Positions 1-22,605 of a DNA stretch of 23,336 nt are shown here, one piece after another. The DNA is from a virus. The stretch spans positions 1 to 23,336 of the IMG/VR virus record IMGVR_UViG_3300025096_000141. The stretch is one strand, 5' to 3'. The translations under genes were made by a program, and so were the position numbers. The first letter of the stretch is position 1. Every line of letters begins with the position of its first letter. The notes beneath the pieces were generated by a model. It was not told the origin of the DNA and did no database searches. It saw only the letters and a list, made by a program, of their open reading frames with translations.

Positions 1-3000
1 GATGCTGAAACAACAAATAGATCAAAAACCTTTACTTCTAGTGGAGTATCTACTAATACATCAATAATAACTTTTGTAGATGATCATAATTTCTATAATG
101 GTGAAAAAATTTATGTTGGTATAGGTACAGAAGGAGTTGTAGATGGCACAAATACTATATTTACTAGTGGATATTACTATGTGAGTGTAGTTAATGTTAA
201 AGATATTCAATTATGTGTAAACCTTCCTAATTTACATGTAGGGATTAATGAATCTATAAAATTTAATGGCGAAGCAGCAAGTGGAATTCATACGGTTACT
301 CCAGCAAGTTTATATAAAAACGGAAGTTTAAAAAATCAAGATAATTTCAAAAGAATACTTAAAACACCAGAATTGGTAGATAATAATTCAGATATTAGTG
401 GCCCAATTGGAGTATCTTTAAATGGAGTAGAACTTCATTCTCCAATATCAGAGGACTCTGTTTATTATGGTCCTCTTACTGATGTTGATATTTTAAATGA
501 AGGTCAAAATTATGATGTAATTAACCCACCAAACGTATCAATTGCTGATACTTATGGTAGTGGTGCAGTAATTAATGCAAATTTCTCAGGAAGTATATCT
601 GATATTGTTTTAACTTCAAGGGGATTTGATTATCGTGAAACTCCATCAGTTTCTATAGTTGGAGGAAATGGATCGGGTGCGATATGTGAAGCTAAGATGC
701 GAGGATATACACATTCAGAAACATTTACTGATTTTAACGTACAATTGGTCGATCCTGGTAGGATTGATAGGTCACATAAGTTCCTAGATGGAGAGGAGGT
801 GACCTATATTGCCTCTGGAACACCAATTGGTATAGGAAATACCCAAGTTGGTTTTGCGACTGATAGATTGGCATCTGGAACCACTTATTACATTGCTAAA
901 CATTCTACAACTTCTTTTGGATTAGCAATATCCAAAAGTGATGCCCTTAATAAAATCAATTTAATACATTTTAATCAATTTGGAAATAAGAGTCATGAAT
1001 TTAGATCTAGAAAAATTAGAAATATAATTGATAGGATTGTTATTAACGATTCTGGTAAATCTTATTCTAATAAAAAGATTACGGTACAATCACAAGTATA
1101 TCCACCAATAAATGCAAAGGATCTATTTAAAACATATGTTGGAATTAATACATTTGATAATTATGTGTATGCAAGAAATCATAATTTTAACAATAAGGAT
1201 ATTGTAAGTTATTCTAGTTCCAATACAGTAATTGGTGGTTTATCTGCAGGAGATTATTATGTTACTCTTATTGATGAAAATAGATTCAAATTGAGTAGCA
1301 ATGAAACAAATTATGATAGAAATATTTTTGTTGATTTGAATAGTATTGGAGTTGGCACTCATACATTCAAATATCCTGATATTGCAGTTAATATTGGTGG
1401 TGAAGTTGGAATTGGTACAACTACATCAATAGAATCATACTATAATGCTGATGCATATGCTGAAGTACGGGGTGGTATTGGTAATATATTTGTTGAGTCT
1501 GGAGGATCAACTTATGGTGTTGATAATACTATCAATTTCCTACGTAGACCAAAAATTACATTATTGACAGGAAAAGATGCAATTTTAAATCCAATTGTTG
1601 ATAGTACAGGAAAAATAGGTGCTGTTGCTATATTGAATAAAGGTAGTGAGTATACTACTCCACCAGAACTTAGAGTTACTGAAGTTGGTGCATCCTCTGG
1701 TCAATTTGCCAAACTAAGAGCAGTCATTAGTAATGGTGAAATAGTTGATGTTGATATTTTAGATCCAGGTATTAATTATAATTCTACTGATACAGTTATT
1801 ACTGTTGTTCCAGCTGGAGAATCTGCCAAATTTAGTGCAAATGTTTATGAATGGAAATTAAATTCTGTTTCACAATATTCAAATATTTTAAGTGATTCAA
1901 CTTATAGGGATATTATACAAGTTGGAACTGGAAGTATACTTAAAGGAAATAAAATTTGCTCATTCTATCCAGGAAATTATTATAGAAAACTTCTAGATGA
2001 TCATATTGAAGATATTTCTGGTGTTTTAAAGGAAAAAACTCCAACTTCACACTCTAAAATTATTGGTTGGGCATATGATGGAAATCCAATTTATGGACCA
2101 GTTGGAGAGGTGGGTATTGGATTGACTTATATGCAATCTAGTTATGATATTGATTCTATAAGTGACAGTGGATTACGACCTGCACAATCCAAGTATTCAC
2201 CTGGATCTTTTGTTCAGGATTATGTTTATAATTCTAGTGGAGATTTGGATGAATATAATGGAAAATTTGTAAAAACTCCAGAATATCCAAATGGAATATA
2301 TGCATATTTTAGTACTATTGATAAAACTTTAACTCCAAATACTGTTCCAACATTCCCTTATATAACAAAACAACATCGTAATAAAACAGATTTATTTAAT
2401 TATGATGTATTGATGAATCAATCTGATAATTTTCTTAATAGTGGAAAGTATAAGAGAAATGTAACCCATCTTGGATTGAATGATCCATTTAGAACATATC
2501 CCTTATTAAGTGATTCTTTAGATTCAAATGCAGAGATTAGAGTAGATTCTTTGAATTCTGGAAAAGTATCGAAAATTATTGTAAATGATGGTGGAGAATC
2601 TTATAAATCTGGAGAATTAATAGGATTCAACAATAAGAGTATTTCTGCTAGTATTGATGAAGTCTATGGTAAAAATATCATATCTGTAGAGACATCTGAT
2701 ACCATTATTGATGACTTAAAATTCTCTGTAGTTGATGGTAAAGTTACAGGACTCTCTACCCTTCCACATGGTCTTACTGATAAAGATATTATAGAAATTT
2801 CAGGTATAACATCTTCCCTTTATACAAATATAGAAGGATTTAGAACAATTGGTGTTTCTTCAGTAACATCTGGATTAACTTCTTCTATGGTAAATTCGGG
2901 AGTAACTACATTTATTGCGTTACATGATTCTACTCTCAGTAAGAAATTTGATATTAACGATGTAGTTCAAGTAGAATCTGAGCAATTACAAGTTATTGCA

Positions 3001-6000
3001 CATGATGATTACAATAACAGATATAGAGTTACTAGGGGTTATAATGGAACTACTGCATCTGGACATGGTTCTGGAGCAATTGTCTATAGACTTGAAACTG
3101 AATTTACGTATGATGTTCCAGAAAAATTAGAGAATAAAAACATAGAATTCCCCAAAATTCAGTATTTTGAGGGAGTAAAATCTGTAGGACTTGGTAGTGT
3201 TTATACGGATGTTGTGGTTGGATATGCTGGTAGTGTTGCTATTAAGAAATCTATACCACCAAGATCAATATATCTACCAAATCATAAGTTTAAAACTGGT
3301 GATGTTTTATCATTTGTTTCTATTGGATCTACCGTATTTGTTTCAGGAACAGATGCATTGACACCTGCTGTTGATTTATCTACTTATGGAAATCTATATT
3401 GTGTAAAACTCAGTGATGAATTTATTGGTGTATCTACACAAAAAGCAAATTATACTACAACACATAGTTGGTTTACTGTAGTTCAGAGCTCTGGTGGGGA
3501 TAATAATAGTTTAGAAGTCGTTACTGATAACGTTAATGGCCGTCTAAAGAAAGTAAGTGCAACAGTAACTACTGATTCTAATCATTCATTAACAGTTGAT
3601 GATAATGTGAGATTGGATATTTCTCCAAATAAAGCACAAACTATTGACCTTAGATTTAATAGTGATATTAGGAAATTAGTTACGAATCCAGTTACTATTG
3701 CATCTACAGGAATTGGAACAATTACGGATGAAATTACAATTGCGAATCATGACTTTAATACGGGAGATATCGTTGTTTATAATTCATCAACTCCTGCAAC
3801 ACCATTAGTTGATGATGGAGTTTATCATGTTATAGATGAATCTGATAATACGATACGTCTTGCGGAAACAAAGTATGATGTTAATTTATTCCCATACAGT
3901 TATATTGGAATAGGAACTACTGGTGGAGATCCTCATACATTTACTAAAATAAATCCAAGAATTGAATTATATCAAGGAAATACAGCTGAGTTTCTAGTAT
4001 CAGACACTAGTTTGGATGGATATAATATTGCTTTCTATAGTGATGAAAACTTTAAAACTAGATATGATTCTGGATTAATTTCTAGAACAGGTGTAATCGG
4101 TGATGGATTAACTGCTAAAATTAGTGTTTCCCTTGGAAGTTCCATTTCGGATAAGTTGTATTATAGAGTTGAAGGTAAAGAATTAAATTACACTAAAACT
4201 TATCCATCTGCTGCTCAGAGTGATGTTATAAGATCTTCAGAACTTGAAATAGTAAATTCTAAATTTAATAAAATTCATAGAGTTACTGGAGTAGCAAATA
4301 CTACTTTCACATTTAATATGGTTGGTAGTGGAGAAACTACATTATACAATAATCTTGGTTTTACGAGTGCGTTTTATGCAACAGATTCTAGTTCTACAAT
4401 GGGTGGAGTTTATTCGATTAAGATTGTTAGTGCTGGTGAAAAAGTAAATAAATTACCAATTATAACTTCTATAGGAACAACTACTGGTAAAAATGCATTG
4501 TTTACTGTTGAATCTCTTGATATTGGAAAGGTAGATGATACTGTTGTTCATAAGCAAGGATTGGAATTCTCTAGAGATAAGACAATTCAACCAAAGGCTG
4601 ACAGTAATATAATCCTAGAATTGAAGGATGTATTTACATTAAAATCAATTGGTGTGACAACTGGAGGAACAAATTATACTTCATCTCCAGTAACTATTGC
4701 TATTGGTAAACCTTCGGTTGTAACAAGAACCAATTTAGTTGGAAATGCAGTTGATAGTGTTGATATACTTTCAAATGAAAGTGGATTGTCGGATTCATTA
4801 AGAATTATTCCTACTGTCAATTCTAATGGTATTCAAGTTACAAGTGCTACAACCAGTTCAACTCAAATTGTTACTTTGGGATTGAGAGGACCAGTTAATG
4901 GATTTGATGCAAATAATCCATTCCCATTTGCTGTTGGTGATAAAGTTTTTGTTGAAAATGTAAAAGTAACAGAATCGGATGTTGATGGATATAATTCAAG
5001 TGATTATGATTATAAGTATTTTACTCTTACTGGAATTAATACTACTGGTGGAACGGAAAGTGTAGCATATTCTATTGCTGGTATTGGGAGTACTGGGGGA
5101 ACTTACAATAGCGGTGTAAGTAATTTTGGTAGAGTTGTAAATGTAGAAGATTTAGCATCATATTCTCCAACTTTTGAGAAAACTTCATTCTTTGAAAATG
5201 AAACTGTTAGGGTTCCGAATAAGAATATATTTGGTTATGTTGCTAAAAATGGTTGGGATCCTGAGGCCCAGACGTTGAAGTTATACAATGTAACTGGAGA
5301 ATTTGGTGAAAATGATACAATAGTTGGTGATATTAGCAATAATAAAGCAGGTATTGGCGCAATATTCTCGTTTGATTTTAATTTAGATGTTGATAGTACA
5401 GTTGAGAATGTTAATGAATGGAAGGATGATGTCGGTAAATTGAATTTAGATATACAAAGAATTCATGATAATGATTATTATCAAAGATTCTCTTATGCAA
5501 TTAAAGGTGAAAATATTCCATATTTGACATGGAAAGATCCCATTAATAGTTTAAGTCATACTTCAGGATTTAGAGGATTCTCCAATTTAGGAATTACTTC
5601 AACAGGTGCATTAAGTACAAAGTCTGATTCTCAATTAGATTTGAGTGTAACACTCAGTAGTGAAGCATCCGTATGGGAAAGATGGTATTATGACGATGTT
5701 ACAGAAGAAACTGACGATTCAAGTTTATCAAAAATTGTTAAATTTGAGAATAGAATAATTACAAAATATAATGAATCACGAACCAATAAAGTTTTATTGA
5801 TAGATGATATTAGTTCTCAATTTAATGGTATTACAACTTCTGTTGGTGGTGGAATTATTGGATTGAGCACTTTTGCTGCATATACTACTGGTGATAGATT
5901 ATTCTATAAAGATTTCAATCCTGCAACTGGTATTGATACAAGCACATATGAAATTAATATTCCTAGACATGAATTTAATACTGGGGAACGTTTACGTTAT

Positions 6001-8976
6001 ACTCCACATACTGGATCAATTGGTATAGGAACCACAACAGTTCCTGGAGTTGGTTCTACAAATATAATGCCTACAGATGTTTATGTAATTAAAATAACTG
6101 ACGATAAATTTAAAGTTGCTGTTGCTCGATCTTTTGCTTCTGCTGGTGCTGCTGTTACATTTACTACTGTTACTGGTATTGGAACTATACACAATTTGCA
6201 AGTTCCTACAGAAGATGCTTCAATTAGAAGTGTGATAACTGTTGATAATGTTATTCAGAGTCCAATTGCAATAACTACTGCAATTAGTGTTAATTTGACA
6301 GGACCAGTTGGTATTAATACTAATTTTGTTTATTTGAATAGTGTTGCTGATATTTCAGGTAAATCTTTAATTAATATCAATCAGGAAATACTTAAAGTTA
6401 GTTTAGTGGGTGTTGGATCCGCAAGAGAGTTGGATGTCCTTAGAGCACAAATGGGAACTGTTGCTGCAGCACATACTGTTGGAGCAGCAGTAACTGTCAT
6501 TAAAGGTGATTATAAGGTAGAAAATGGTAATATCTATTTTGCCGATGCTCCTTATGGCCCTGCTGGTATTGGATCATTAACAAGTCAATCAACATTTGCT
6601 GGAAGATCATATTATAGATTAGACTATACTTCCAATAAGATAATGGATGATATATCTGATCGTTTTGATGGTGCAACTGATAAGTTTGATTTAACTACTA
6701 ATGGTGCAGAAATGTCTGGAATAACTAGTAGTTTTGGTATGGTATTGGTTAACAATATCTTCCAAAGACCAGATGTAGATGAACTTAGTGGAGAATCAAG
6801 TTCGGATTATTCACTTGTGGGTACTGGTAAGACAATTGATTTCACTGGAACATCTGCAAACAAGGATCTTCCTAAAGGTGGTATAATTAATGAATTTGAT
6901 GTTGGAATAGGTAGTGGATATCAATTACCAAGGCAAGCACTTTTGGATGTTGTTATTAATAGCAATACTGGAACAATTTCTACAGTAGGAATATTAACTG
7001 GTGGTTCTGGATATCTTAGTGCTCCAATGGTTTCCATTGCTTCTACAGATAGGCATTTCTCTCATAGTTTCGTATCTGCAGCAAATAATGCAGTAAATGG
7101 ATCATTAACACCAACAAATGCGGAATATACATCATCAACTGGTATGATGGTATTAACTATACCAGGTCACACCCTTACTACTTCAAATACTGTTCAGTTT
7201 ACTAACAATTCTATAACAATGAGTTGTTCTAGGGACAATTATACCACAAATCATACTTATCCAAGAACTACTGATCCTGTTGCTGGTGTTGCAACTGCTA
7301 TTTTAGCAACTAGTGCAAATACAGTTACAGTTTTTGTTGGACTTGGTTCTGGTACTGATGCCGTCCTTACTACTCACATAACAGATGGATCGGTTTCTTG
7401 GGTTAATATAACAAAGGCAGGTACTGGATATACATCAACTGGTATAGGTGGTTCTACTGGATTTGCTGTTGTTGATATTCCAAAACCATATAAAAATATT
7501 GCTTTATCTGGTGGAAGTGGATCAGGTGCGGCAGTTGATGTTGTTGTTGGTACTGGTGGAAGTATTGTTGATTTCAAACTTTCAAATCGTGGCATGGGTT
7601 ATGAAATTGGTGAACAATTGGAAATTATTAATCTTCCATTCCAAGCAGGTATTGCAACAAGTAGATTCAATGTGACAATCAGGAACAAATATCAAGATAA
7701 ATTTGCTGGTTGGTGTTTTGGTGAATTGATTGAATTGGATGATTTTAGTAATCTATTCAATGGATATAGAAAATCATTCTTAATTACTCGTACAGGTGCT
7801 GCTGGTAAAGAGTATTACAGTGTTGTCGCTAAAGATGGATCTGGAATTATTCTTGCAAATAATCTTTTCTTATTCTTAAATGATATTTTACAAATACCTG
7901 ATAGAGATTATGAATTTAGTGGAGGAACAAGAATATCATTCAAAGAAGCACCAAAAACTGGAAGTAAGTTTAAATTCTATCTATATGCTGGTTCGGAGTT
8001 GGATTATGCCGAAGTAGATGTTGATGAGAGTGTTAAACCAGGGGATGAATTGAAACTTCAAGCTGGAATTAATAGTATAACTGGTGGAAGAATTTCTGAA
8101 CAGGATAATAGAATTATCTATGAATTAATTGCTGCAGATACCGTAGAAACACAAACTTATTCTGGTATTGGTATTGTTACAGATCCTGCTGCCAGAAGAC
8201 CAACAATGTGGAGAAAGCAGACAAATGATATGCTTATTGATGGTGTAAAAATTTCTAAGGAGAGGAATTACTTAGAACCACAGATATATCCAACAACTGG
8301 AATTATTAAATCAGTTTCTAATACTGATGGTACAATATGGGTAGAAGATTCTTGGTTATATGATCATGTTGATGAACTAGATCAAGATATTAATAATGTT
8401 CGTATTGTTGGGTTGGGAACAACTGCAGTATCCGAAGTAATTGAAAAAGTTAGTTATAATGGAGATTATGGAACAATCGTTGGTATTGGAACAAGTGCAG
8501 TAGGAATAGGTACTACTACTTCACCTGCACTTTATTTTGATCTTAAGGTTGCTTCGGAAATATTTGCAGATGTTCCGAATGACAATCAACTTAAAATACC
8601 AGGAATTGGTACTGGTGGATATTTTACAATAAAAGGTACCCATATTGGTCCTGGAGTAACTGGTATCGTCACACATACAAGTGAAGTAGTTTCAGTTGGA
8701 AATACTTTCTTAGATAATGTGTATTACGCAGCTACTGTGGTTGGTATGGGAGCAACAACTCTTAGAGTTTTTGCTAATATTACTTCTTTATCTGGAATAG
8801 ATACATCTATAATATCAGATGTTGTGACGTGTGGATCATATAGTTGGGGTTCTTTGAGTGGTAGTAGAGATTTTAGTGCAAAATCTTATACATTCCACAA
8901 TCAAAATGGTTTAATTGGGATCCAAACTTCTGCTCAGGTCATACGAGATGTCCAATTAAAGGTTAAGTATACTTAA
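1..8976 (+). CDS. Giant virion structural protein, gene-7 position, 5' truncated
   Basis: The frame is open from base 1, so the true start lies upstream; a GTG at 181 is internal. At least 2991 residues are visible before the TAA at 8974-8976. I infer a baseplate or fibre-like structural protein, since it lies directly before gp8, where T4 has wedge gene 7 (about 1032 residues). I see no clear gp7 similarity. The protein is rich in Gly, Ser, Thr, Asn and G-I-G-T turns and is built of repeated beta-type modules: HxF-x-G-D (six copies), G-x-G-Y (several), R-G...H (two), FDG (two), and one YHYH-like domain (visible residues about 679-788). The C-terminal 350 residues, with MWRKQTND near 8209-8232 and LEPQIYPTTGIIKSV near 8272-8316, resemble a segment I recall from cyanophage structural proteins. 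No signal peptide or membrane segment is visible. Being structural is well supported; the exact role is not. Confidence 0.85.
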   Translation, partial: DAETTNRSKTFTSSGVSTNTSIITFVDDHNFYNGEKIYVGIGTEGVVDGTNTIFTSGYYYVSVVNVKDIQLCVNLPNLHVGINESIKFNGEAASGIHTVTPASLYKNGSLKNQDNFKRILKTPELVDNNSDISGPIGVSLNGVELHSPISEDSVYYGPLTDVDILNEGQNYDVINPPNVSIADTYGSGAVINANFSGSISDIVLTSRGFDYRETPSVSIVGGNGSGAICEAKMRGYTHSETFTDFNVQLVDPGRIDRSHKFLDGEEVTYIASGTPIGIGNTQVGFATDRLASGTTYYIAKHSTTSFGLAISKSDALNKINLIHFNQFGNKSHEFRSRKIRNIIDRIVINDSGKSYSNKKITVQSQVYPPINAKDLFKTYVGINTFDNYVYARNHNFNNKDIVSYSSSNTVIGGLSAGDYYVTLIDENRFKLSSNETNYDRNIFVDLNSIGVGTHTFKYPDIAVNIGGEVGIGTTTSIESYYNADAYAEVRGGIGNIFVESGGSTYGVDNTINFLRRPKITLLTGKDAILNPIVDSTGKIGAVAILNKGSEYTTPPELRVTEVGASSGQFAKLRAVISNGEIVDVDILDPGINYNSTDTVITVVPAGESAKFSANVYEWKLNSVSQYSNILSDSTYRDIIQVGTGSILKGNKICSFYPGNYYRKLLDDHIEDISGVLKEKTPTSHSKIIGWAYDGNPIYGPVGEVGIGLTYMQSSYDIDSISDSGLRPAQSKYSPGSFVQDYVYNSSGDLDEYNGKFVKTPEYPNGIYAYFSTIDKTLTPNTVPTFPYITKQHRNKTDLFNYDVLMNQSDNFLNSGKYKRNVTHLGLNDPFRTYPLLSDSLDSNAEIRVDSLNSGKVSKIIVNDGGESYKSGELIGFNNKSISASIDEVYGKNIISVETSDTIIDDLKFSVVDGKVTGLSTLPHGLTDKDIIEISGITSSLYTNIEGFRTIGVSSVTSGLTSSMVNSGVTTFIALHDSTLSKKFDINDVVQVESEQLQVIAHDDYNNRYRVTRGYNGTTASGHGSGAIVYRLETEFTYDVPEKLENKNIEFPKIQYFEGVKSVGLGSVYTDVVVGYAGSVAIKKSIPPRSIYLPNHKFKTGDVLSFVSIGSTVFVSGTDALTPAVDLSTYGNLYCVKLSDEFIGVSTQKANYTTTHSWFTVVQSSGGDNNSLEVVTDNVNGRLKKVSATVTTDSNHSLTVDDNVRLDISPNKAQTIDLRFNSDIRKLVTNPVTIASTGIGTITDEITIANHDFNTGDIVVYNSSTPATPLVDDGVYHVIDESDNTIRLAETKYDVNLFPYSYIGIGTTGGDPHTFTKINPRIELYQGNTAEFLVSDTSLDGYNIAFYSDENFKTRYDSGLISRTGVIGDGLTAKISVSLGSSISDKLYYRVEGKELNYTKTYPSAAQSDVIRSSELEIVNSKFNKIHRVTGVANTTFTFNMVGSGETTLYNNLGFTSAFYATDSSSTMGGVYSIKIVSAGEKVNKLPIITSIGTTTGKNALFTVESLDIGKVDDTVVHKQGLEFSRDKTIQPKADSNIILELKDVFTLKSIGVTTGGTNYTSSPVTIAIGKPSVVTRTNLVGNAVDSVDILSNESGLSDSLRIIPTVNSNGIQVTSATTSSTQIVTLGLRGPVNGFDANNPFPFAVGDKVFVENVKVTESDVDGYNSSDYDYKYFTLTGINTTGGTESVAYSIAGIGSTGGTYNSGVSNFGRVVNVEDLASYSPTFEKTSFFENETVRVPNKNIFGYVAKNGWDPEAQTLKLYNVTGEFGENDTIVGDISNNKAGIGAIFSFDFNLDVDSTVENVNEWKDDVGKLNLDIQRIHDNDYYQRFSYAIKGENIPYLTWKDPINSLSHTSGFRGFSNLGITSTGALSTKSDSQLDLSVTLSSEASVWERWYYDDVTEETDDSSLSKIVKFENRIITKYNESRTNKVLLIDDISSQFNGITTSVGGGIIGLSTFAAYTTGDRLFYKDFNPATGIDTSTYEINIPRHEFNTGERLRYTPHTGSIGIGTTTVPGVGSTNIMPTDVYVIKITDDKFKVAVARSFASAGAAVTFTTVTGIGTIHNLQVPTEDASIRSVITVDNVIQSPIAITTAISVNLTGPVGINTNFVYLNSVADISGKSLININQEILKVSLVGVGSARELDVLRAQMGTVAAAHTVGAAVTVIKGDYKVENGNIYFADAPYGPAGIGSLTSQSTFAGRSYYRLDYTSNKIMDDISDRFDGATDKFDLTTNGAEMSGITSSFGMVLVNNIFQRPDVDELSGESSSDYSLVGTGKTIDFTGTSANKDLPKGGIINEFDVGIGSGYQLPRQALLDVVINSNTGTISTVGILTGGSGYLSAPMVSIASTDRHFSHSFVSAANNAVNGSLTPTNAEYTSSTGMMVLTIPGHTLTTSNTVQFTNNSITMSCSRDNYTTNHTYPRTTDPVAGVATAILATSANTVTVFVGLGSGTDAVLTTHITDGSVSWVNITKAGTGYTSTGIGGSTGFAVVDIPKPYKNIALSGGSGSGAAVDVVVGTGGSIVDFKLSNRGMGYEIGEQLEIINLPFQAGIATSRFNVTIRNKYQDKFAGWCFGELIELDDFSNLFNGYRKSFLITRTGAAGKEYYSVVAKDGSGIILANNLFLFLNDILQIPDRDYEFSGGTRISFKEAPKTGSKFKFYLYAGSELDYAEVDVDESVKPGDELKLQAGINSITGGRISEQDNRIIYELIAADTVETQTYSGIGIVTDPAARRPTMWRKQTNDMLIDGVKISKERNYLEPQIYPTTGIIKSVSNTDGTIWVEDSWLYDHVDELDQDINNVRIVGLGTTAVSEVIEKVSYNGDYGTIVGIGTSAVGIGTTTSPALYFDLKVASEIFADVPNDNQLKIPGIGTGGYFTIKGTHIGPGVTGIVTHTSEVVSVGNTFLDNVYYAATVVGMGATTLRVFANITSLSGIDTSIISDVVTCGSYSWGSLSGSRDFSAKSYTFHNQNGLIGIQTSAQVIRDVQLKVKYT
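2035..2364 (+). other. YHYH-like domain within the giant structural protein
   Basis: Visible residues about 679-788 carry the hallmarks I recall for the YHYH family (Pfam PF14240): S-H-S-x-I-I-G-W-A-Y-D-G-N-P-I-Y-G-P, then D-L-D-E-Y-N-G-K-F, then T-P-E-Y-P-N-G-I-Y-A-Y-F, and a closing F-P-Y-I. The literal YHYH string is not seen here. The family is known from secreted bacterial proteins and marine phage structural proteins and has no established biochemical role that I know of. The assignment is by pattern only. Confidence 0.75.
2881..3093 (+). repeat. R-G...H module, first copy
   Basis: This segment has a strand-rich start, an E-x-L-Q-V strand, then V-T-R-G-Y-N-G-T-T-A-S-G-H-G-S-G-A. The pattern 'E-I-x-x...R-G-x-x-G-T-x-A-x-x-H' is common in phage tail proteins. 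Related copies lie at 6235-6540 in the same protein and at 16730-16978 in the DUF4815 protein. Confidence 0.6.
5218..5376 (+). repeat. G-Y-V...W-D...G-E module in the giant protein
   Basis: The segment reads F-G-Y-V-A-x-x-G-W-D-P, then T-L-K-L-Y-N-V-T-G-E-F-G-E-N-D. It matches a module seen in gp8 (10214-10324), gp14 (22321-22500) and, more loosely, twice in the DUF4815 protein (10886-11068 and 13175-13351). Confidence 0.55.
6235..6540 (+). repeat. R-G...H module, second copy
   Basis: The segment carries I-N-Q-E-I-L-K-V, then L-D-V-L-R-A-Q-M-G-T-V-A-A-A-H and V-G-A-A-V. It is recognisably the same unit as 2881-3093, but the R-G is R-A here. It is followed by G-N-I-Y-F and A-P-Y-G-P. Confidence 0.6.
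6649..6849 (+). repeat. FDG module, first copy
   Basis: The segment contains D-D-I-S-D-R-F-D-G, F-D-L-T-T-N-G-A, V-N-N-I-F-Q-R-P-D and a D-Y-S strand. It pairs with 7732-7953, which has D-D-F-S-N-L-F-N-G, F-L-I-T-R-T-G-A, N-D-I-L-Q-I-P-D and D-Y-E-F in the same order. This points to an internal duplication about 1.1 kb apart. Confidence 0.6.
7732..7953 (+). repeat. FDG module, second copy
   Basis: This is the second member of the pair described at 6649-6849. It leads into the C-terminal region of the giant protein that I recall as conserved in cyanophage structural proteins, so this copy may be the ancestral one. Confidence 0.55.
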
Positions 8977-8979: not shown

Positions 8980-8981
8980 GG

Positions 8982-8989: not shown

Positions 8990-9007
8990 TTCAAAAAAAC
9001 ACTAGCA

Positions 9008-10597
9008 ATGCCAGCAATAATAACTGACCAATACAGAATACTGAATGCTGAAACGTTCGTTGACAGTTTTGTAGGTATTGGTACAACAGGTAATAATAAC
9101 TATTACACATTTTTAGGTCACCCCCAACCTAAGAACATCAATGTTCCAAAATATGGAGATGCTAATTGGGATAGTAAGATTCCTGATCCTAAAGATAATT
9201 TCGATCAAGAAAGTTTATACTATGATAGTATGCTTTTTTTGAAGAAGGTAACTGAAAATGACGTAAGAAGAGTAATTAAGAGGATTGATTGGCAATCTGG
9301 TACATCATATGACATGTATCGGAATAACTATGAAATTGATAATAAAACACCACAAACAAAATTTTCAACATTATATGAATCAAATTATTATGTTCTGAAC
9401 TCAGAGTATAAGGTTTATGCTTGTGTTAATAATGGATCTAATAAAGATTATCCACTTGGGCAAAAATCACAATATGAACCAACCTTTGTAGACACAATTC
9501 CACGACAAGCAGGAAATGGATCTGATGGATATTGGTGGAAATATCTTTATACTATTGCTCCTGCAGATATTGTTAAGTTTGCTACTAATAAGTACATACC
9601 TCTTCCTAAAAAATGGGGTGATACAACCACAGCAACCGTTAAAAATGCTTCAATAAATGGAAAAATTGAAGCAGTTATAGTCAAAGAAGTTGGTAGTGGA
9701 TATCAAATTGATGATGGTACTACATCAAATTCAACTGGAACTATTTCAAATATACCTATTGTTGGTGATGGATCAGGTGGTCAAGTAGCAGTAAAACTCA
9801 ATAGTGGTATTGTTGAGAGTGTTGAAATGGTAGCAGGTGGAACTGACTATACTTATGGAGTGGTTAGATTTGAAGATGGAGTAGCAGGTGGAGGTAAAGA
9901 AGTAAAAGGTGGATCTGGTGGAGAATTTGAAGTTATAATTCCACCAAAAGGTGGCCACGGTTCAGACATATATCGTGAACTTGGTGGTTATAAAGTTATG
10001 GTATATTCCAAGTATGATAATAACGTTGCAGATGCTCCAGATTATGTTGTTGGTAATGATTTTTCTCGTGTTGGATTAGTTAGAAATCCTCTTGTGTATG
10101 GTGGAACACAGCTACTAAATAGTACGACTGCCACTAATCTTGGCGCATTAAAACTAAAACCTTCTCCTGGTACAGCGAGAACGGATGATGTTATATTTGT
10201 CAAGAACTCTCAGATTACTCAAACAGTCGGAGTTGGTTCTACAGCAGTTGGTTATGTTGCTTCTTGGAATCCAGATACTGGAGTTTTGAGATATTATCAA
10301 CCAGTTGGATTTTCAACTTTATCCCAATATTCATATAAGAAATTGGATTTTGTTGGAGCAGCAGCAACAGTTAATGGTGGTACTGGTGGAAATCTTTGGC
10401 CTGATATTACTTTTGATAATGTAAGTTCTACCAAAGTTGGTGGAAAAGATGTTGATTTAGGACAAACCTTTGTTGATGGTAAAGCACCTCCAGATGTTAA
10501 AAAATATTCTGGTGATATAATCTATATTGATAATAGATCATCAGTCACCAGGTCTTCCTCACAGAAAGAAGAAGTAAAAATCGTAGTAGAGTTCTAA
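9008..10597 (+). CDS. gp8: Baseplate wedge protein gp8
   Basis: This is the baseplate wedge subunit homologous to T4 gp8 (334 residues there, 529 here). The matches to T4 gp8 are the D-G-Y-W-W-K-Y-L-Y motif near residue 176 (T4: D-G-Y-V-W-E-Y-L-F) and the C-terminal Y-S-G-D-I-I-Y-I-D-N-R-S with K-E-E-V-K-I-V-V-E-F (T4: S-G-E-M-I-Y-M-E-N-R-P with T-E-E-I-N-I-L-F-T-F). The extra length includes a Gly-rich G-x-G-Y insertion at residues 217-291 and a W-N-P-D-T-G-V-L module near residue 403. The ATG at 9008 starts a family-like M-P-A-I-I-T-D-Q-Y-R-I-L-N. There is no clear Shine-Dalgarno: the leader is A-rich. It is preceded by a late promoter box and followed three bases later by the DUF4815 gene. 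In the virion it should sit in the wedge with gp6 and the gp7 equivalent. Confidence 0.92.
   Translation: MPAIITDQYRILNAETFVDSFVGIGTTGNNNYYTFLGHPQPKNINVPKYGDANWDSKIPDPKDNFDQESLYYDSMLFLKKVTENDVRRVIKRIDWQSGTSYDMYRNNYEIDNKTPQTKFSTLYESNYYVLNSEYKVYACVNNGSNKDYPLGQKSQYEPTFVDTIPRQAGNGSDGYWWKYLYTIAPADIVKFATNKYIPLPKKWGDTTTATVKNASINGKIEAVIVKEVGSGYQIDDGTTSNSTGTISNIPIVGDGSGGQVAVKLNSGIVESVEMVAGGTDYTYGVVRFEDGVAGGGKEVKGGSGGEFEVIIPPKGGHGSDIYRELGGYKVMVYSKYDNNVADAPDYVVGNDFSRVGLVRNPLVYGGTQLLNSTTATNLGALKLKPSPGTARTDDVIFVKNSQITQTVGVGSTAVGYVASWNPDTGVLRYYQPVGFSTLSQYSYKKLDFVGAAATVNGGTGGNLWPDITFDNVSSTKVGGKDVDLGQTFVDGKAPPDVKKYSGDIIYIDNRSSVTRSSSQKEEVKIVVEF
9656..9880 (+). repeat. G-x-G-Y module inserted in gp8
   Basis: Residues 217-291 of gp8 contain V-G-S-G-Y-Q-I-D, then G-D-G-S-G-G-Q-V-A-V, a second strand start V-E-S-V-E-M-V and G-G-T-D-Y-T-Y-G. 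T4 gp8 has no such stretch. The same two-unit layout occurs in the giant protein and gp14. Confidence 0.65.
10214..10324 (+). repeat. W-N-P...L module in gp8
   Basis: This reads V-G-V-G-S-T-A-V-G-Y-V-A-S-W-N-P-D-T-G-V-L-R-Y-Y, close in pattern to the G-Y-V-A-x-x-G-W-D-P...L-K-L-Y segment of the giant protein and the A-Y-V-E-A-W-D...L-K-I segment of gp14. Confidence 0.5.
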
Positions 10598-10600
10598 AAA

Positions 10601-13600
10601 ATGACACAGAATACTAATTTAAATGTCTCTCCATATTTTGATGATTTCAATGAGGATAAGAACTATAATAAAGTTCTATTTAAACCTGGATTTCCAGTTC
10701 AAGCGAGAGAATTAACAACTCTACAATCGATTCTTCAGAATCAGATAGAAAGATTTGGTCAACATTTCTTTAAGGAAGGTTCGATAGTAATTCCTGGTGG
10801 AACATTTTATGATGATAGTTATTTTGCGGTAAAGATAGATCCAAATTTCCTGAATATACCAGTTCATAATTACACAAAATATCTTGTAGATAATAATATT
10901 GAGATTGAAGGTGAAACTTCTGGAGTAAGAGCAACTGTAGTTAATAGATTGATTGCACCTGAATCTACTGCAGGTTATGATACATTATATGTAAAATATT
11001 CAAAATCTGGAACTGATGGAGTTACCAAAACATTCCAAGATGGTGAAAATTTAGTTACTTTATCAAATATTTCTTATTTGAATACAAGTATTGCTGCGAA
11101 TAGTCAATTCGCCAGATGTGTTATATCTGAAGCTTCTAAAACTGGATGTTCTTTCTCTGTTAGTGAGGGTGTATTCTTTATTAGAGGATATTTTGTTAAA
11201 GTTCCAGATTCTACTGTAATTTTAGATCAATATACCAATTTACCTAGTTATAGAGTTGGTTTACTTATTAACGAAGAAGTAGTACGTGCTTCATGTGCCA
11301 ATTCTGATCTTTATGATAATGCTAAGGGATTCTCCAATGAGGCTGCTCCTGGTGCTGATAGATTTAAAGTCTCTGCTACTTTACATAAGAAAGAACTTAC
11401 AGATAAGAATGATTTAGACTTTATTGAATTATTACGTGTTGAGAATGGAATTGTAAGGAATATTGTAACTAGAACACAGTATAATATCATTGCAGATGAA
11501 CTTGCAAGAAGAACTTATGACGAGTCTGGAGATTATTATGTTAAACCTTTCTCTATTGATGTAAGAGAGTCGTTGAATGATAGAGTTGGAAATAGAGGAA
11601 TATATTTCTCCAATCAACAGACTCAAAATGGAAATACACCATCAGATGATATAATATCACTTCAGGTATCCCCAGGAAAGGCGTATGTAAGGGGTTATGA
11701 GGTCGATAAAATATCTACTTCGTCTATTGATGTCGTCAAACCAAGAACGACCAAGTTAAAGGAGAATGCAAGTACTCCTATAAGAATTGGAAATTACGTT
11801 GATCTTGAGAATTCTTGGGGATCACCTACTATTGGATTCTCTACAAGTGTAAAATTACTTGATAGAAGATGTAAGGATAATGGAGAAGCACATGGAGATT
11901 CTATTGTTGTTGGTCAAGCAAGAGTATTTGATTTTAATCAGAAGAGTATATCTGGAGTTTCTACAACTACTCATGAGGCACGTCTGTATGACATTCAGAC
12001 CCACACAAAGGTCTCATTAGGTGCAACCATAGCATCTGTGCCAAATAGCGCACAAATTAAAGGAAAATATAGTGGATCTGTTGGATTTGCAACTGCTGCA
12101 AGTACGGATACACAATTACTCGTTATGAGTGATGTTAGTGGTCAATTCCAGTTAAATGAACCAATTTTAATCAATGGAAATGATACTGGTAATAATATTA
12201 CTGAAGTTACTGATTGGTCATTTGATGATATAAAAGCACTTAATAGTGAGGCTGGTATTGGTGCTGGAACTTCTACTTTTGCTGCTAACTTATTATTAGA
12301 TCGTAGAAAAGGTGCATTTAATGAAGGAATTGAATTTCAGTTTACAAATACTAGTGTTCAAAGTGGTGGTGTATCAGACTTTAGCGGACTTGTTAAAGTT
12401 GGTGATATTATAAATTATTCTCCTGCATCTGGAACTACTGTCTACAATAGAGTATCTGCTGTTAATGGATCAACTCTTACTATCGAAGCAGTATCCAATG
12501 TTGATGGAGTATGTAGTGGAGTCTTGTCAGGTGGTACAACCCCAACTGGTGTAGATGTTCTTATCCCTTCCATTAAACAAGGTGATAATCCTGGATTTAG
12601 AATGAAGTTGCCACATAATTATGTGTCGTCTATTAATATTCTTGATAGTTCTTATATTGTAAGAAAGCAGTTTACTAATGTTACTATTAGTTCGGTTGCT
12701 TCTCATACTTTCCAGATAACTGCTCTTTCAGATAATGCTGATTTATATTTTGAACCATTTACAGAACAAAACTATACTTTAACTTGGAGTACTGGAGAAA
12801 AGGAAATAGTTAGAGAGTCCCAAGTTACAATTAGTGCAAATTCCAAAGAACTTGAAATTAAAACTCTTTCAAAAACAGGAACAGCAACTCTTACTGCTTC
12901 TGTAAGAAGAAGTAAACTTTCATCTAAGGATAAAGATTTAGTAAGATGTGCTAATCTTCTCATCACAAGATCAAATGATACTTCATCTGGTATTACTACG
13001 TTTACCAAGAATGATGGTTTAACTGTAAATGCTGTCTACGGAACGAGAGTACAAGATGATGAAATTTCATTAAATGTTCCAGATGTAAGTAGAATATTAG
13101 GAATATTTGAATCTACAGATGGTACTGATCCCGATGTACCATTAGTAACTGTGTCAACTCAATCTGATACGTTTACTAATAATGTATTAGTTGGTGAAGA
13201 GTTTATTGGTGCTACTTCTGGTGCTGTTGGTCGTGTAATATCTGTTGTTAATGGTACAACGTTACAATTTGTTTATGAAAATGAAAATACCTTTGAATTG
13301 GGTGAATCATTTACATTAAAAACTGCAGGTATTTTGGCAACAATTTCTGCTTTAGTTAAAGGTGACACAAATATCACCAATAATTATAAGTTAGATGATG
13401 GACATAGAGAGGAATTTGCTGATTATTCAAGAATTGTAAGAAAGAAAGGTATTGCGGCACCTTCAAGAAAAATAAGAATCATTTATGATCACTATACAAA
13501 TAATGAAGGTAGTGGAACTCTAGAAACAGTTAATAGTTATACTGGATTGGATTATTCAACGGAAGTACCATTTATTATTGATAACTGGGCATCGGATTTT

Positions 13601-16600
13601 CTAGATTTAAGACCAAGAGTTGCAGCATATAATACAAGTAGTGGAGATTCACCATTCTCATTTGCGAGTAGGAACTTTAGTAATTCTACTTCAGAAACAG
13701 TAGTTTCTAATAAGAGTGTTATTGTTGATTATAGTTACTATCAAGGAAGAATTGATAGATTATACTTAACAAAGGATGGATTATTTGAAGTTAAGAAGGG
13801 AAGTCCAGCTGATAGACCAAAAACACCATTACCAAATGATGAAGCAATGGAAATTGCTGTCATTTCATTGGAACCATATATTCGTAATGCTACTGCTGAA
13901 AGTGCAGTAAAAACAATTCCACATAAGAGATACACCATGAAAGATATTGGTGGTCTTGAAAATAGAATTAAAAATCTTGAAACATACACCACACTTTCTC
14001 TTCTTGAAACAGATACGAAAAATTTATCAGTTAAAGATCCTAATACTGGATTGGATAAATTTAAATCTGGATTCTTTGTAGATAACTTTAGAAATCATGC
14101 TTCTCATAATTTGACTGGTGAGTCTAAATTTGATATTGATATGTCAACTGGTGAAATGAGACCAAGATCAACTGAAAGAAATGTTAAGTTGATGTTTGAA
14201 ACTGTTAGTACTTTGGCAAGTCCATCTACTGCAGATTATCGTTGGGTAGAAGATTTTGCGGATGCTAATGTTACAAGAAATGGTCCTGCTGTTAGTCTTA
14301 AGTTTGATGAAGTTGAGTTCCTCAACCAACCATTAGCAACAAGAACTGAGAACTTAAATCCATTCCATATTGCACTATTTGCAGGAACAATCACACTTAA
14401 TCCTGAATCTGATTTCTGGATTGAAGAAGTTCCATTGGGATCTCCTGAAGTATTCAGAATTGATTCACCATTCAACGCAATTGCAGATCTTCTTGGTGTT
14501 GAGGATCGTGAAAATGGTGGAATGGGGGCATCGTATTGGAATTCTCATGAGCAAACTTGGACTGGAAGGGAAGTACTTGATGAAGAAGTTGTAGATAGGG
14601 AAGTAATTTCCAGAGACGTGGAGAGTATGCGTGGAAGAGGAAGAAGGGAGATTACTACAACTGTTCTTAATGAAGATATTTTACAAACTGTCAAACAAAC
14701 GGGAATTGAAAAAACATTTAATTTTGATTTAAGTGTTGGACAAGAAACCATAGACCTTGGTAAGAAAGTTATCGGAGTCGATGTTCTGTATAATGTCAGA
14801 ACAAGGAATGTTGAGGTTATTGGTAAACGATTAAAACCAAATACAAGATATTATGTCTTCATGGAAAATGTTGACATGACTAAGTATGCTATTCCAAAAC
14901 TTCTACCAATAACAATGGTGAGGGGATCTTTTGCACCAGCTGATATTGTAGATAGTACAACTCCTGCAGGTACTGGAGTTGCAGGTATTAGATTTAGAGC
15001 AGCAACATCTAATCATAAAGAAGGTAAATTTAACGATCCAGATGAAGTGGTTACGATATTACCATATCCTTTACCTGGAACTACACTTCCTGGAAGTTAT
15101 TCCAGTACAAGTTCAGTATTGAACGTTGATACTGCTGGTCTTGCAATGCATACTACACCTGATCATCTTGGTTGGGTTAAGCAAGGTATGAGTTTGGTTA
15201 ATACTCAAGGAAGTGCTGAATGTACAATTGATGAACTTAAATTGGTGAGTGATGAAAAAGGAGATTTGATTTTCTCTTTACATATTCCTGATCCTACTAT
15301 TGCAAGCAATCCTAAGTTCCTTACAGGTACTAGTACAATTAGATTATCATCTAGTGCAACAAATGCTGCAGTTTTAGATCCAGGTGAAAGTTCTGCAGAA
15401 GCAAATTATCTTGCTACTGGACATGCACAAAATACAACTGAGCAAACTTTAGCTATTAAATCTGCTCACATTGAACGGAAACAAGTAGGTTCTGATCAAC
15501 CTGTAACTAGAGTTACTCAAGATCTTCTTGAGGATCAAGTTAGAACACGTGTTCATGACACTGGATGGTATGATCCACTTGCACAATCATTCTTAGTGGA
15601 AAGAGATAGATTCCAAGATGGAATATTCATAACTGGTGGTGACCTCTTCTTTAAGAAGAAAGATAATACTGCTCCAGTAACAGTTCAGTTGAGGACTATG
15701 AGAAATGGAACTCCAACTACAACTATTGTTCCATTTGGTCAAACTCAAATAGATTCGGCTGATGTTAATCTATCAGATGATGGTAGTGCTGCTACTAATT
15801 TTAAATTTGAGACACCAGTATATTTGCAGGCTGGATATGAATATGCAATAGTATTAATTGCTCCTACTGAGAAATATCTAACATTTATTACTAGAATGGG
15901 TGAAGAAGATTTGGTTCTCCAATCAGTAAGTAATAGACAACCATATTTGGGATCGCTATTTAAGTCACAGAATAGTTCAACATGGACTCCAAGTCAATAC
16001 GAAGATCTTAAATTTAAACTTAATAAAGCAAAGTTTGTAACTAATACTCCCTCTAGTGTTATCTTCTATAATACTGAATTACCTCTAGGTAAAATTAGAA
16101 AACGTAATCCAGTTATTGGATATGCTAATAGAGCAGCAGTATCGATAGCAACAACTACTAAAACGTTTACTGAGGGACATGAATTCTTACAAGGAACTAA
16201 TACTGGAAGACTTTTTAAAGCAGCTGGTCCAGTAAGTCTTGGTACAACTACTATGACATTAATGTCAAATACTGGTATTGGTTTAACTAATGGAACCTTT
16301 ACTGGAATAGGATTTAGTGCTCTTAGTGGAGATGGAACAGGAGCACAAGGAACAGTAACTGTTGCTGGTAATCTAATAACTTCTATTAATATAACTGCTG
16401 GTGGTAGTGGGTATGTTGCAGGTGATCCCCTTCTTATGAATAATGTAGGTGCCGAAGGTTCTGGTGTAAGAACAGTCGTTGCCATTTCTTCTTTGACTAA
16501 TTATCTTGTTATGGATGAGGTTAATAACAAATTTGTAGATAATGTAGATTTAACTTATGTTGATGGTAATGGTGCTCGTAGTACTATTGCTAATTCTAAT

Positions 16601-18099: not shown

Positions 18100-18101
18100 T
18101 T

Positions 18102-18109
18102 TATAAATA
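18102..18109 (+). promoter_or_regulatory. T4-type late promoter upstream of the fibre cassette
   Basis: This is a second exact TATAAATA box, in the 39-base gap between the 74-residue and 112-residue genes. It ends 29 bases before the ATG at 18139, leaving room for a short leader. It probably starts the transcript running to gp14. Confidence 0.8.
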
Positions 18110-18138
18110 CCTCAAGGTAGATTTTAACTGATTTAATA

Positions 18139-18477
18139 ATGGCAGCATACGTTAACAATATAGTAATTGATGCTGGGGCTGATTTTAATCAGACTTACAC
18201 ACTTGAAGATAATAATAGTGCTCCTTTGGATTTAACAGGGTATACAGGTGATGCAAAGATAAAGAAGCATCCAGCTTCTTTAAACGATACTGCAACTTTT
18301 ACTGTATCATTCCCTAATAGAACACAAGGACAATTGAAGATATCATTGACAGATACCGTTACCAAGACCTTAAAGTCTGGTAGATATAGTTATGATATAC
18401 TAGTCACTGATTCTGGTGGTATAAAAACTAGAGTCGTTGGTGGTAGTGCAATTGTGACTGCTGGAGTTACTCTATAG
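18139..18477 (+). CDS. Ig-like beta-sandwich structural protein (112 residues)
   Basis: The pattern is I-D-A-G-A-D-F-N-Q-T-Y-T-L, then P-L-D-L-T-G-Y-T-G-D-A-K-I-K-K and G-R-Y-S-Y-D-I-L-V-T, closing with V-V-G-G-S-A-I-V-T. This layout is widespread in small phage tail proteins and resembles the N-terminal beta-sandwich of baseplate upper proteins such as BppU. It is probably an accessory structural or adaptor protein of the tail or fibre; I cannot place it more exactly. It is the first gene after a late promoter box, with no strong Shine-Dalgarno at normal spacing; an AAGGTAG lies about 20 bases upstream, too far to be convincing. The next gene starts four bases after its stop. Confidence 0.8.
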   Translation: MAAYVNNIVIDAGADFNQTYTLEDNNSAPLDLTGYTGDAKIKKHPASLNDTATFTVSFPNRTQGQLKISLTDTVTKTLKSGRYSYDILVTDSGGIKTRVVGGSAIVTAGVTL

Positions 18478-18481
18478 AAAT

Positions 18482-20155: not shown

Positions 20156-20157
20156 AC

Positions 20158-21170: not shown

Positions 21171-21174
21171 TGTT

Positions 21175-22605
21175 ATGCCACTTTCTCCGTATTTCCTTCA
21201 AGGATCATCGAATGAACAAAGATTGGTTCAAGATCTTATAAATGAACAATTAAAAATTTATGGGCAGGATGTAGTATATCTTCCTAGAAATGTTATAAAC
21301 AAAAATACCATTATGAAAGAGGTTACTTCCTCGGTATTTGATGATGCTTATCGGATGGAAGCATATTTGTTAAATTATGAGGGATTTGAAGGTAATGGAG
21401 ATATTTTATCTAAATTTGGAGTTCAAACAACAGATCAAGTTACATTTGTAGTATCTAAAGAAAGGTATGAGGATTTTATTAGTCCATTTATGGCTGCAGA
21501 CAGTCAAATTGAGTTGGCAACAAGACCAGAAGAAGGCGATTTAATATACTTACCTTTAGATAATACTATGTTTGAGATTAAGTATGTTGAAGGTAAGAAA
21601 CCATTTTATCAGTTGAATAATCTTTATGTTTACACATTAAGTTGTGAAGTAATGGATTATGCTGCTGATGAACTAATTGATACAAGTATTGCCGAAGTTG
21701 ATGAGGCTGCCGTTGAATTTGGATATACACAAAGACTTACTATGGTTGGTCTTGCTGCATCAACTGCTACTGCTTCAGTTGTTATAGCAGAAAATACTGG
21801 ATCACTTGGAACTGGACGATATTCAGTATCTCAAGTTGATTTAATTAATGATGGAACTGGATATACAATTGCACCATTAGTTGGAATTGGAACTGCTCCG
21901 ATTGGTGGAACAAATGCAAGTGCTGTTGCGATCATGACAAGTAGGACTGGTCAGACTGGTCAATCTATTGATAGCATTCAACTTACCAATCCAGGTTATG
22001 GTTACACTGTATCGCCTATTATTACTATTAGAAGTCAAAATGCATTTGGAACTGGTGGTATTGCAACTGCTATCATTTCACAAGGATCTCTAACTATACC
22101 AACTATAAACAATGCTGGTGCAGAATATGGATCAGTGCCAACTGTTCTTATTGGAGTGGCCCCAGCTGGTGGAACTAACGCAGCATCTGTTGCTATAGTC
22201 AATACTGCTGGTGGAATAAATGCTATTAGATATACCAATGCTGGTGCTGGATATACTGTAGTACCGAATGTTATTGTAGATGCTCCTGCAAGTGGCATTA
22301 ATACTGGAAATTATCTCTTCAGAGAGATGGTAAAAGGTGTTTCTACTGGAACTACTGCATATGTTGAAGCTTGGGATAGTGATGATAGAATTCTTAAGAT
22401 TAACAATATTTCTGGAAGTGGTTTTGCAATTGGAGAAGCAGTTGTTGGTATAGGAACTTCTAATAATGGATCTGATTCCAAGTACATTGTTCAGAGTACA
22501 TCTGAACAAGATGAGTATGATCCTTACAATGAAAATATCCTTGTAGAGTCAGAAGCAGATGCACTTTTGGACTTCTCTGAAGATAACCCATTTGGTGATT
22601 TCTAA
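21175..22605 (+). CDS. gp14: Neck protein gp14 with repeat insertion
   Basis: This is the homologue of T4 gp14 (256 residues), the partner of gp13 in the neck. Residues 1-175 match T4 gp14: V-V-Y-L-P-R-N-V (T4: C-Y-Y-V-P-R-E-Y-V), N-Y-E-G-F-E-G (T4: S-F-E-G-Y-E-G), F-G-V-Q-T-T-D-Q-V-T, and G-D-L-I-Y-L-P-L-D-N...F-Y-Q-L. At 476 residues it is almost twice the T4 length. The excess is mainly four tandem G-x-G-Y units at residues 222-382 and a W-D...G-E module at 383-442. It ends in an acidic tail, F-S-E-D-N-P-F-G-D-F. The ATG at 21175 has TAGGA seven bases upstream; the out-of-frame ATG at 21170 is not used. A possible late promoter overlaps its stop codon. Confidence 0.93.
   Translation: MPLSPYFLQGSSNEQRLVQDLINEQLKIYGQDVVYLPRNVINKNTIMKEVTSSVFDDAYRMEAYLLNYEGFEGNGDILSKFGVQTTDQVTFVVSKERYEDFISPFMAADSQIELATRPEEGDLIYLPLDNTMFEIKYVEGKKPFYQLNNLYVYTLSCEVMDYAADELIDTSIAEVDEAAVEFGYTQRLTMVGLAASTATASVVIAENTGSLGTGRYSVSQVDLINDGTGYTIAPLVGIGTAPIGGTNASAVAIMTSRTGQTGQSIDSIQLTNPGYGYTVSPIITIRSQNAFGTGGIATAIISQGSLTIPTINNAGAEYGSVPTVLIGVAPAGGTNAASVAIVNTAGGINAIRYTNAGAGYTVVPNVIVDAPASGINTGNYLFREMVKGVSTGTTAYVEAWDSDDRILKINNISGSGFAIGEAVVGIGTSNNGSDSKYIVQSTSEQDEYDPYNENILVESEADALLDFSEDNPFGDF
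21838..22320 (+). repeat. Four tandem G-x-G-Y units in gp14
   Basis: The units begin at about 21838, 21979, 22102 and 22228 and are 41-47 codons long, the last shorter. Each has N-x-G-x-x-Y-x3-P followed by a V-x-I strand. Units 1 and 3 are the most alike (both with G-G-T-N-A and an S-V-A or A-V-A strand), as if a pair had been duplicated. The units replace nothing in T4 gp14; they are extra. Confidence 0.75.
22321..22500 (+). repeat. W-D...G-E module in gp14
   Basis: Residues 383-442 read V-S-T-G-T-T-A-Y-V-E-A-W-D, then I-L-K-I-N-N-I-S-G-S-G-F-A-I-G-E-A-V. The same order is found at 5218-5376 in the giant protein and, shorter, in gp8. Confidence 0.55.

Follow-up and report, generated by a model that had tools for sequence, protein, structure and literature searches.

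The virus record IMGVR_UViG_3300025096_000141 (hereafter the window, meaning all 23,336 bases analysed; G+C 34%) raises the question of what makes up the extra mass of its virion proteins, which is largely without a Pfam domain model, and how that mass was acquired. The window encodes, in order, the 3' part of a giant protein in the gp7 position, gp8, a DUF4815 protein, small proteins, gp13, gp14 and gp15, and is a block of virion-protein genes from a Kyanoviridae-type, T4-like marine phage. Cyanophages and pelagiphages belong to the most abundant viruses of the sea. An initial annotation of this DNA had reported one G-x-G-Y repeat module in the giant protein, gp8, the DUF4815 protein and gp14, and had proposed that it is a mobile surface domain that spread among the baseplate and neck proteins of one phage. 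The explanation that we favour, with a probability of roughly 0.6, is that two families of beta modules, M1 and M2, were inserted long ago and repeatedly into these proteins as an accessory virion surface.

M1 is a unit of 40 residues in which V-x-x-I-x-hydrophobic-x-N-x-G-x-G-Y-T is followed by P-x-V-x-I and then by G-x-G-A-x-A-x-A, often in tandem. Hidden Markov models (HMMs) and profile-profile comparison agree with the positions given by the initial annotation in gp8, the DUF4815 protein and gp14, and the unit recurs in the giant protein. The four tandem units of gp14 occupy residues 217-257, 264-305, 306-346 and 348-376 by HMM, the last extending to 388 by eye. An iterated HMM places five units in the giant protein (159-197, 198-236, 539-580, 581-615 and 2325-2364), to which profile-profile comparison adds the region 2440-2560, and a single unit in the DUF4815 protein. 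The gp8 region is recognised solely through profile-profile comparison and its orthology to the gp8s of other phages. The M1 features, with the mean predicted local distance difference test (pLDDT) score where given, are as follows.

475..708, + strand: giant protein, two M1 units (residues 159-236); iterated HMM 29.3 and 32.7 bits; profile against gp14 units 98.2%.
1615..1845, + strand: giant protein, two M1 units (539-615); 28.0 and 27.3 bits; profile against gp14 units 96.3%, against gp8 units 97.9%.
6973..7092, + strand: giant protein, M1 unit (2325-2364); 25.0 bits; profile against gp14 units 68.8% (5-row alignment).
7318..7680, + strand: giant protein, M1 region (2440-2560); profile against gp14 units 96.7%; no iterated-HMM match exceeding the best decoy.
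9656..9937, + strand: gp8, two M1 units (217-310); profile against gp14 units 93.7%; pLDDT 81-90; window gp8 missed by the iterated HMM.
16376..16492, + strand: DUF4815 protein, M1 unit (1926-1964); 20.0 bits; profile against gp14 units 82.6%, against gp8 units 96.3%.
21823..21945, + strand: gp14, M1 unit 1; HMMs.
21964..22089, + strand: gp14, M1 unit 2; HMMs.
22090..22212, + strand: gp14, M1 unit 3; HMMs.
22216..22338, + strand: gp14, M1 unit 4; HMMs; final third overlaps the start of M2, and the iterated HMM ends at residue 376.

Because the iterated HMM was trained on the same proteins on which it was scored, the cleanest test of homology is profile-profile comparison of separately built alignments. 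With the gp14 units as query, the matches at 83-98% (gp8, three of the four giant regions and the DUF4815 protein) span about 45-100 columns, and the reversed, two core and non-overlapping M2 control profiles all stay at or below 2.2%. Over all six profile queries the top reversed control reached 5.7% and the top M1-M2 value 6.7%; the weakest M1 pairs were giant 155-240 against the DUF4815 protein (55.0%) and gp8 against giant 2318-2365 (52.4%). A value of 95.1% between the gp14 units and gp14 M2 is due only to 13 residues present in both regions. Additionally, the gp14 family model PHROG_460 matches the giant protein with a whole-protein E of 3.2e-14, its best stretch being 536-619. The profile matches and their controls bear out that, as originally described, four proteins whose cores are unrelated have a single module in common, and the modules are almost certainly homologous across these proteins.

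On sequence evidence, a second shared module that the initial annotation overlooked, M2, is present in the same four proteins. M2 is a strand-rich module of 60 residues. In its first pass an HMM built only from gp14 M2 scored up to 31.0 bits on the gp8, DUF4815 and giant proteins of other phages and 19.1 bits on the window giant, where decoys reached 7.0 at most; the M2 copies of window gp8 and DUF4815 were gained only on iteration, when the decoy maximum was 12.9. The seeds from S-RIM50-type gp14 started within the last M1 unit. The gp14 M2 profile matches regions of the other three proteins at 83.0% or above, and gp8 M2 reaches only 1.3 and 41.8% against two DUF4815 regions. The M2 copies are:

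5176..5352, + strand: giant protein, M2 (1726-1784); gp14-only M2 HMM 19.1 bits, decoy maximum 7.0; 95.5% against gp14 M2.
10181..10402, + strand: gp8, M2 (392-465); iterated HMM 37.1 bits, decoy maximum 12.9; first pass not above decoys; 95.2% against gp14 M2.
10871..11092, + strand: DUF4815 protein, M2 (91-164); iterated M2 HMM 34.5 bits, by HMM only.
12023..12202, + strand: DUF4815 protein, M2 (475-534); 36.6 bits; 84.7% against gp14 M2, 1.3% against gp8 M2.
13166..13348, + strand: DUF4815 protein, M2 (856-916); 43.3 bits; 83.0% against gp14 M2, 41.8% against gp8 M2.
22300..22479, + strand: gp14, M2 (376-435); M2 HMM; together with strand 186-191 it is split by the M1 array.

The relation of these modules to the conserved cores is clearest in gp14, where the core is followed by M2 interrupted by the M1 units and then by a conserved tail ending N-P-F-G, which is invariant in 40 of 40 alignment rows. 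The core itself is the following feature.

21175..21714, + strand: gp14 conserved core (1-180); PF11649, E 5.5e-28, residues 5-176; model against T4 gp14 9lu7_M, Z 13.1.

We modelled gp14 and gp8 with AlphaFold from alignments of the window protein with 39 of 239 environmental gp14 and with 32 of 63 gp8 loci, respectively. The gp14 core model superposes on T4 gp14 (9lu7_M) with a root-mean-square deviation (rmsd) of 4.3 over 138 aligned residues, and the gp8 model on T4 gp8 (1n7z_A) with Z 17.3 and rmsd 3.3 over 263. T4 gp14 (PDB 9lu5, 9mkb) thus resembles residues 1-180 in sequence and fold but has neither M1 nor M2; likewise T4 gp8 (PDB 1n7z) has neither module, whereas window gp8 carries M1 (217-310) and M2 (392-465) as extra segments. 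The absence of the unit from T4 gp8 and gp14, stated in the initial annotation, holds more widely, since the iterated M1 HMM, with decoys scoring no more than 10.9, detected no unit in any of the 11 T4 proteins, and the M2 HMM found no M2 in T4 gp14 or gp8. Mean pLDDT per 10-residue block was 78-91 over gp14 211-390, except for 66 at 371-380, and 81-90 over gp8 211-310. The whole-protein models predict about three strands per M1 unit in gp14 and a similar but looser pattern in gp8.

Fold searches of the PDB returned matches to the cores and perhaps to M2 and none to the M1 array, which the comparisons barely covered, so that the missing match says little. The M2 regions of the gp14 and gp8 models have weak neighbours in common, such as 8rk3_b, all below the tool's safe level: for gp14, 1kk1 (eIF2-gamma; Z 5.5, rmsd 3.9, 77 aligned) and 8rk3_b (491-560; Z 5.5, rmsd 3.0, 65 aligned), and for gp8, 8rk3_b (494-559; Z 4.0, 62 aligned) and 8apf_B1 (Z 4.4, 62 aligned). 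At this level a small beta barrel of the elongation-factor type is no more than a candidate fold for M2. Among the matches listed for the gp14 model in BFVD are neck, structural, YHYH and baseplate proteins, and also the Sylvanvirus protein A0A3G5AH46 (E 2.4e-6, 20% identity).

Comparison with other phages indicates where the arrays entered. Set against the gp14 of metaG-MbCM1, which has no units, the array excised from all four S-RIM50-type proteins (77-83 residues; site B) lies after G-E-x-I-x-G or nearby, and that from all four window-type proteins (169-341 residues; site A) lies before the equivalent strand, the best excision in window gp14 being residues 197-375. Runner-up cuts score close (79.5 vs 78.5 in S-SCSM2R, 236.5 vs 235.5 in ACG-2014d) with the strand side unchanged; plain alignment left the M2 starts of window-type and MbCM1 gp14 out of register. 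Since sites A and B differ, the same gp14 M2 domain received arrays at two sites. In the DUF4815 protein, where the window-type unit sits near residue 1926, alignment shows a second site near residue 633 that is occupied in S-RIM50 and ACG-2014b and empty in eight of ten proteins; the unit there is confirmed by HMM in S-RIM50 only and seen by alignment only in ACG-2014b.

Copy number varies as well. Among 239 environmental gp14 we counted two M1 units in 80 proteins, three in 16, four in 138, six in 3, seven in 1 and nine in 1; the queries that retrieved these proteins carried units, and therefore unit-free gp14 is under-sampled. The nine units, found by HMM, belong to a gp14 of 853 residues (locus L244, 2992-5550), some of them near-repeats by eye, which points to recent tandem duplication. 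Repeated insertion of the modules, at variable places and in variable copy numbers, is thus very likely, whereas the spread within one phage proposed in the initial annotation is not supported (see below).

The ratio of nonsynonymous to synonymous substitution (dN/dS) falls from 0.194 in the units through 0.128 in M2 and 0.075 in the tail to 0.059 in the core (978 pairs from the 51 sequences of 481-residue gp14, at 85-98.5% identity and with a proportion of synonymous differences, pS, of up to 0.6). Judged from these substitution rates, the units change faster than the core, yet are under purifying selection. Because of the inserted positions, the free copy number and this relaxed constraint, we regard the modules as probably an exposed accessory surface.

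We envisage that two small beta-module families came to be inserted into loops and tails of conserved virion cores. Recombination would have inserted M1 coding DNA, with the reading frame kept, at turns where additional domains are tolerated, and tandem duplication would then have lengthened the arrays, which may project from neck and baseplate, outside the DNA gate and the baseplate core, enlarging the exposed surface. There they could make weak, non-specific contacts with the host surface or with neighbouring virion parts, as proposed for immunoglobulin (Ig)-like domains of phages. In the T4 neck studied in vitro, residue 177 marks the end of the gp14 core, and the 80 residues at the C-terminus are invisible (PMC12270204); as the window array starts directly after the gp14 core, it most likely hangs from the neck, outside the gate. 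S-SM1 virions have been found to contain a homologue of gp14 (PMC3037559). By analogy with Ig-like and BACON domains, weak adhesion is our best single guess for the selected function, though a doubtful one. The glycan binding, or the knitting together of adjacent proteins, that the initial annotation had raised is at this stage conjectural.

Several observations weigh against these proposals. The conserved residues of the unit are mostly G, P, A and Y and look structural; no binding site was found in the M1 unit, and we know of no adhesive role for a multicopper oxidase, a protein that carries the unit in cells (see below). The dN/dS values lie far below 1 and give no sign of an arms race. The gp14 model has a predicted template modelling (pTM) score of only 0.43, which bears on exposure, and 244 residues of the gp14 chain are modelled in the structure of the whole T4 portal-neck-tail (9mkb). 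In that structure the C-terminal part of T4 gp14 is therefore ordered, and this end might act in the manner of a joint.

The main rival to weak adhesion is that the modules act as virion cement, M1 and M2 of neighbouring proteins pairing so as to hold neck, baseplate and fibres together. The co-occurrence of both modules in gp14, gp8, the giant and the DUF4815 protein would fit such pairing, as would purifying selection on the units and the ordered C-terminal part of T4 gp14, and extra tail-sheath domains have been suggested as tail stabilisers (PMC9230969). However, gp14 in the neck and gp8 in the baseplate are far apart in the T4 particle, the number of gp14 units varies from 0 to 9 between phages, which would be odd for an obligatory joint, and M1 is present in cellular proteins too. 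We therefore consider cement unlikely.

It is much less probable that the M1 likeness reflects convergent glycine-rich beta turns without homology. The unit is indeed short, and its few invariant positions are G and Y only. The initial annotation had proposed to decide the matter by whether an HMM of gp14 units recovers those of gp8 and the giant protein above glycine-rich background, and in its narrowest form this comparison speaks for convergence: with the four window gp14 units only, the best non-gp14 match scored 6.2 bits, compared with 7.5 for the best shuffle. An HMM from 242 distinct gp14 units scored as high as 23.2 bits on giant proteins from other phages (decoy maxima 7.7 and 10.2) and was marginal or failed on the window giant (10.6 bits), gp8s (at most 10.3) and window gp8 (below 2). 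The separately built profiles, on the other hand, do recover gp8 (93.7%) and the giant regions (68.8-98.2%), and matches of 83-98%, set against controls of at most 2.2% for the gp14-unit query and 6.7% over all queries, are hard to reconcile with convergence.

The relationships among individual units show how old the copies are. We kept 92 of the 95 matches above 11 bits, those covering at least 24 profile positions. The best partner of 78 units lies in another phage, that of 13 in the same protein and that of one in another protein of the same phage; the two S-RIM50 giants were counted here as separate proteins, and as one family in the permutation analysis. Mean similarity between units of different proteins is 27.2 within a phage (379 pairs) and 30.8 between phages (3500 pairs); by family the values are 26.4 and 29.5, and 94% of label permutations reach the observed difference. 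Recent spread of the module among proteins of one phage, as the initial annotation had read it, is therefore hardly credible. In its favour are the four carriers in one genome, the environmental gp14 with 6, 7 and 9 units, which suggest that arrays grew in tandem, and one S-RIM50 unit whose closest unit lies in the second S-RIM50 giant. Against it, that case is the sole one among 92 units and none is found among the window's 10, cross-protein similarity is not raised within a phage, and the gp14 and gp8 regions are common to orthologues in other phages. The present M1 copies are mostly old.

The M1 family appears to be undescribed in the sources that we searched. In the proteins scanned, the unit drew no Pfam or NCBIfam match at the cut-off of the model concerned. 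No Ig-like Pfam family matched over M1 in eight window, four unit-rich phage and eight cellular proteins (the sole fn3 match lies in an oxidase, outside the units and below cut-off), and the BACON family was absent among the matches listed for the same proteins. Weak Pfam matches that touched units did not reach the respective cut-offs (FlgD_tudor at E 0.0032, in a cellular protein, and GspH at E 0.33). Sequence searches of the PDB with a six-unit array, the 8S53 gp14 and a unit profile returned nothing convincing over the unit, and we dismissed their best matches, HPr (E 0.21, array) and a beta-lactamase (E 0.63, unit profile). PHROGs contains M1 inside whole-protein families. Literature searches with unit strings and for inserted or mobile domains, with subscription papers mostly outside coverage, found no description of the unit, and PMC3037559 has no such repeat at the term matches seen.

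By analogy, M1 is of the kind of the promiscuous beta domains of virions. Like the Ig-like domains of tailed phages (Fraser 2006, 2007, as cited in PMC4332376 and, for 2006, PMC6949934), it is a small beta domain distributed patchily over several unrelated virion proteins; those domains are described there as horizontally exchanged and suspected of weak carbohydrate contacts. M1 differs in its 40 residues, its three predicted strands per unit in gp14, its frequent tandem arrangement and the lack of a Pfam Ig-family match. With the BACON repeats of crAss-like phages, as described in PMC6949934, it has in common tandem arrays grown by duplication in tail-associated proteins and relatives in cells, which for BACON are Bacteroidetes surface proteins, but M1 has no BACON Pfam match, resides in neck and baseplate proteins and is found in several proteins per phage.

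Among marine phages the iterated HMM detected units in 8 of 8 proteins assigned as giant or gp7-position, 8 of 11 gp14, 6 of 11 gp8 and 4 of 10 DUF4815 proteins. Among 50,697 phage records, a six-unit S-RIM50 array matches 327, each of which bears the name Synechococcus, Prochlorococcus or Cyanophage. M1 and M2 are also present in Pelagibacter phage HTVC008M, Methylophilales phage Melnitz-3 and phage C48C1, and weakly in Agrobacterium phage Atu_ph04; neither was found in 13 proteins checked of the Vibrio straboviral phage EniLVp02, nor did the iterated HMM find M1 in another four proteins of HTVC008M that bear the label baseplate wedge initiator. In PHROG_1922 (baseplate hub and tail lysozyme) an M1 unit lies near the C-terminal end (profile positions 829-904 of 932). 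A large structural protein directly upstream of gp13 ends in M1 and then M2, by the HMMs of both, in three phages:

L005 12941-19117, L087 12433-19119 and L089 14418-19112: upstream-of-gp13 structural proteins of ACG-2014d, S-RIM14 and metaG-MbCM1.

A genome scan yielded 26 cellular M1 loci, by record titles in Bacteroidota, Planctomycetota, Akkermansia, archaea and others, and all 19 of the proteins checked hold at least one unit above 11 bits. Pfam identifies a SusD protein, a multicopper oxidase and a PATR-repeat protein among the eight scanned; a putative prophage tail sheath was recognised by eye only and has no Pfam match. A second multicopper oxidase, recognised by 62% identity with the first across 738 aligned positions, has its array elsewhere, and the two have reciprocal empty sites, each lacking the other's array. 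The unit is sparse in Bacteroidota, occurring in 2 of 148 genomes at E 1e-5, one of them the seed genome. We tentatively suggest, as a possibility short of an even chance, that M1 is an undescribed, horizontally moving insertion module of viruses, bacteria and archaea that enters in frame into turns of unrelated exposed proteins and then grows in tandem. If so, marine T4-like virions would be coated with a domain exchanged with cells, its carriers including neck, baseplate and possibly sheath proteins, SusD and multicopper oxidase. Two simple modules account for part of the extra mass and hint at the way in which accessory parts were added to T4 cores; with Pfam-style M1 and M2 models, the decoration of marine virions would become a testable matter.

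The remaining gene assignments are as follows. The reading frame of the giant protein is open at the window start; the protein matches PHROG_2885 (baseplate wedge subunit) and has a YHYH domain. Pfam matches identify gp8 (PF09215, 46.7 bits, cut-off 25), the DUF4815 protein (PF16075, 177.4 bits, cut-off 30), gp14 (PF11649, 98.5 bits, cut-off 25) and gp15 (PF16724), and gp13 matches PHROG_211. The order of the named genes is common to the stretches read of S-SCSM2R, S-8S53 and ACG-2014f, which have extra genes between DUF4815 and gp13. A third repeated motif of the giant protein, H-[NKDE]-F-x-x-[GNK]-[DE], occurs by pattern in six copies at residues 29, 259, 394, 1095, 1250 and 1990 (window positions 85, 775, 1180, 3283, 3748 and 5968) and in no copy in the four other window proteins tried; by eye, with no shuffle control, it is possibly a further module. 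The small protein at 18139-18474 bears a weak likeness to the LtfC beta-sandwich (PF23926, E 4.5e-4, below cut-off) and matches PHROG_3304 (L-shaped tail fiber protein assembly).

M1 and M2 may mislead annotation, in which a DUF4815 protein is labelled gp14 and a gp7-position protein Hc2. The DUF4815 protein of metaG-MbCM1 (L089 5043-12272) is annotated as gp14 neck protein and the true gp14 of this phage as hypothetical, and the gp7-position protein of HTVC008M (L095 19436-22486), which carries both modules, is annotated as head closure Hc2.

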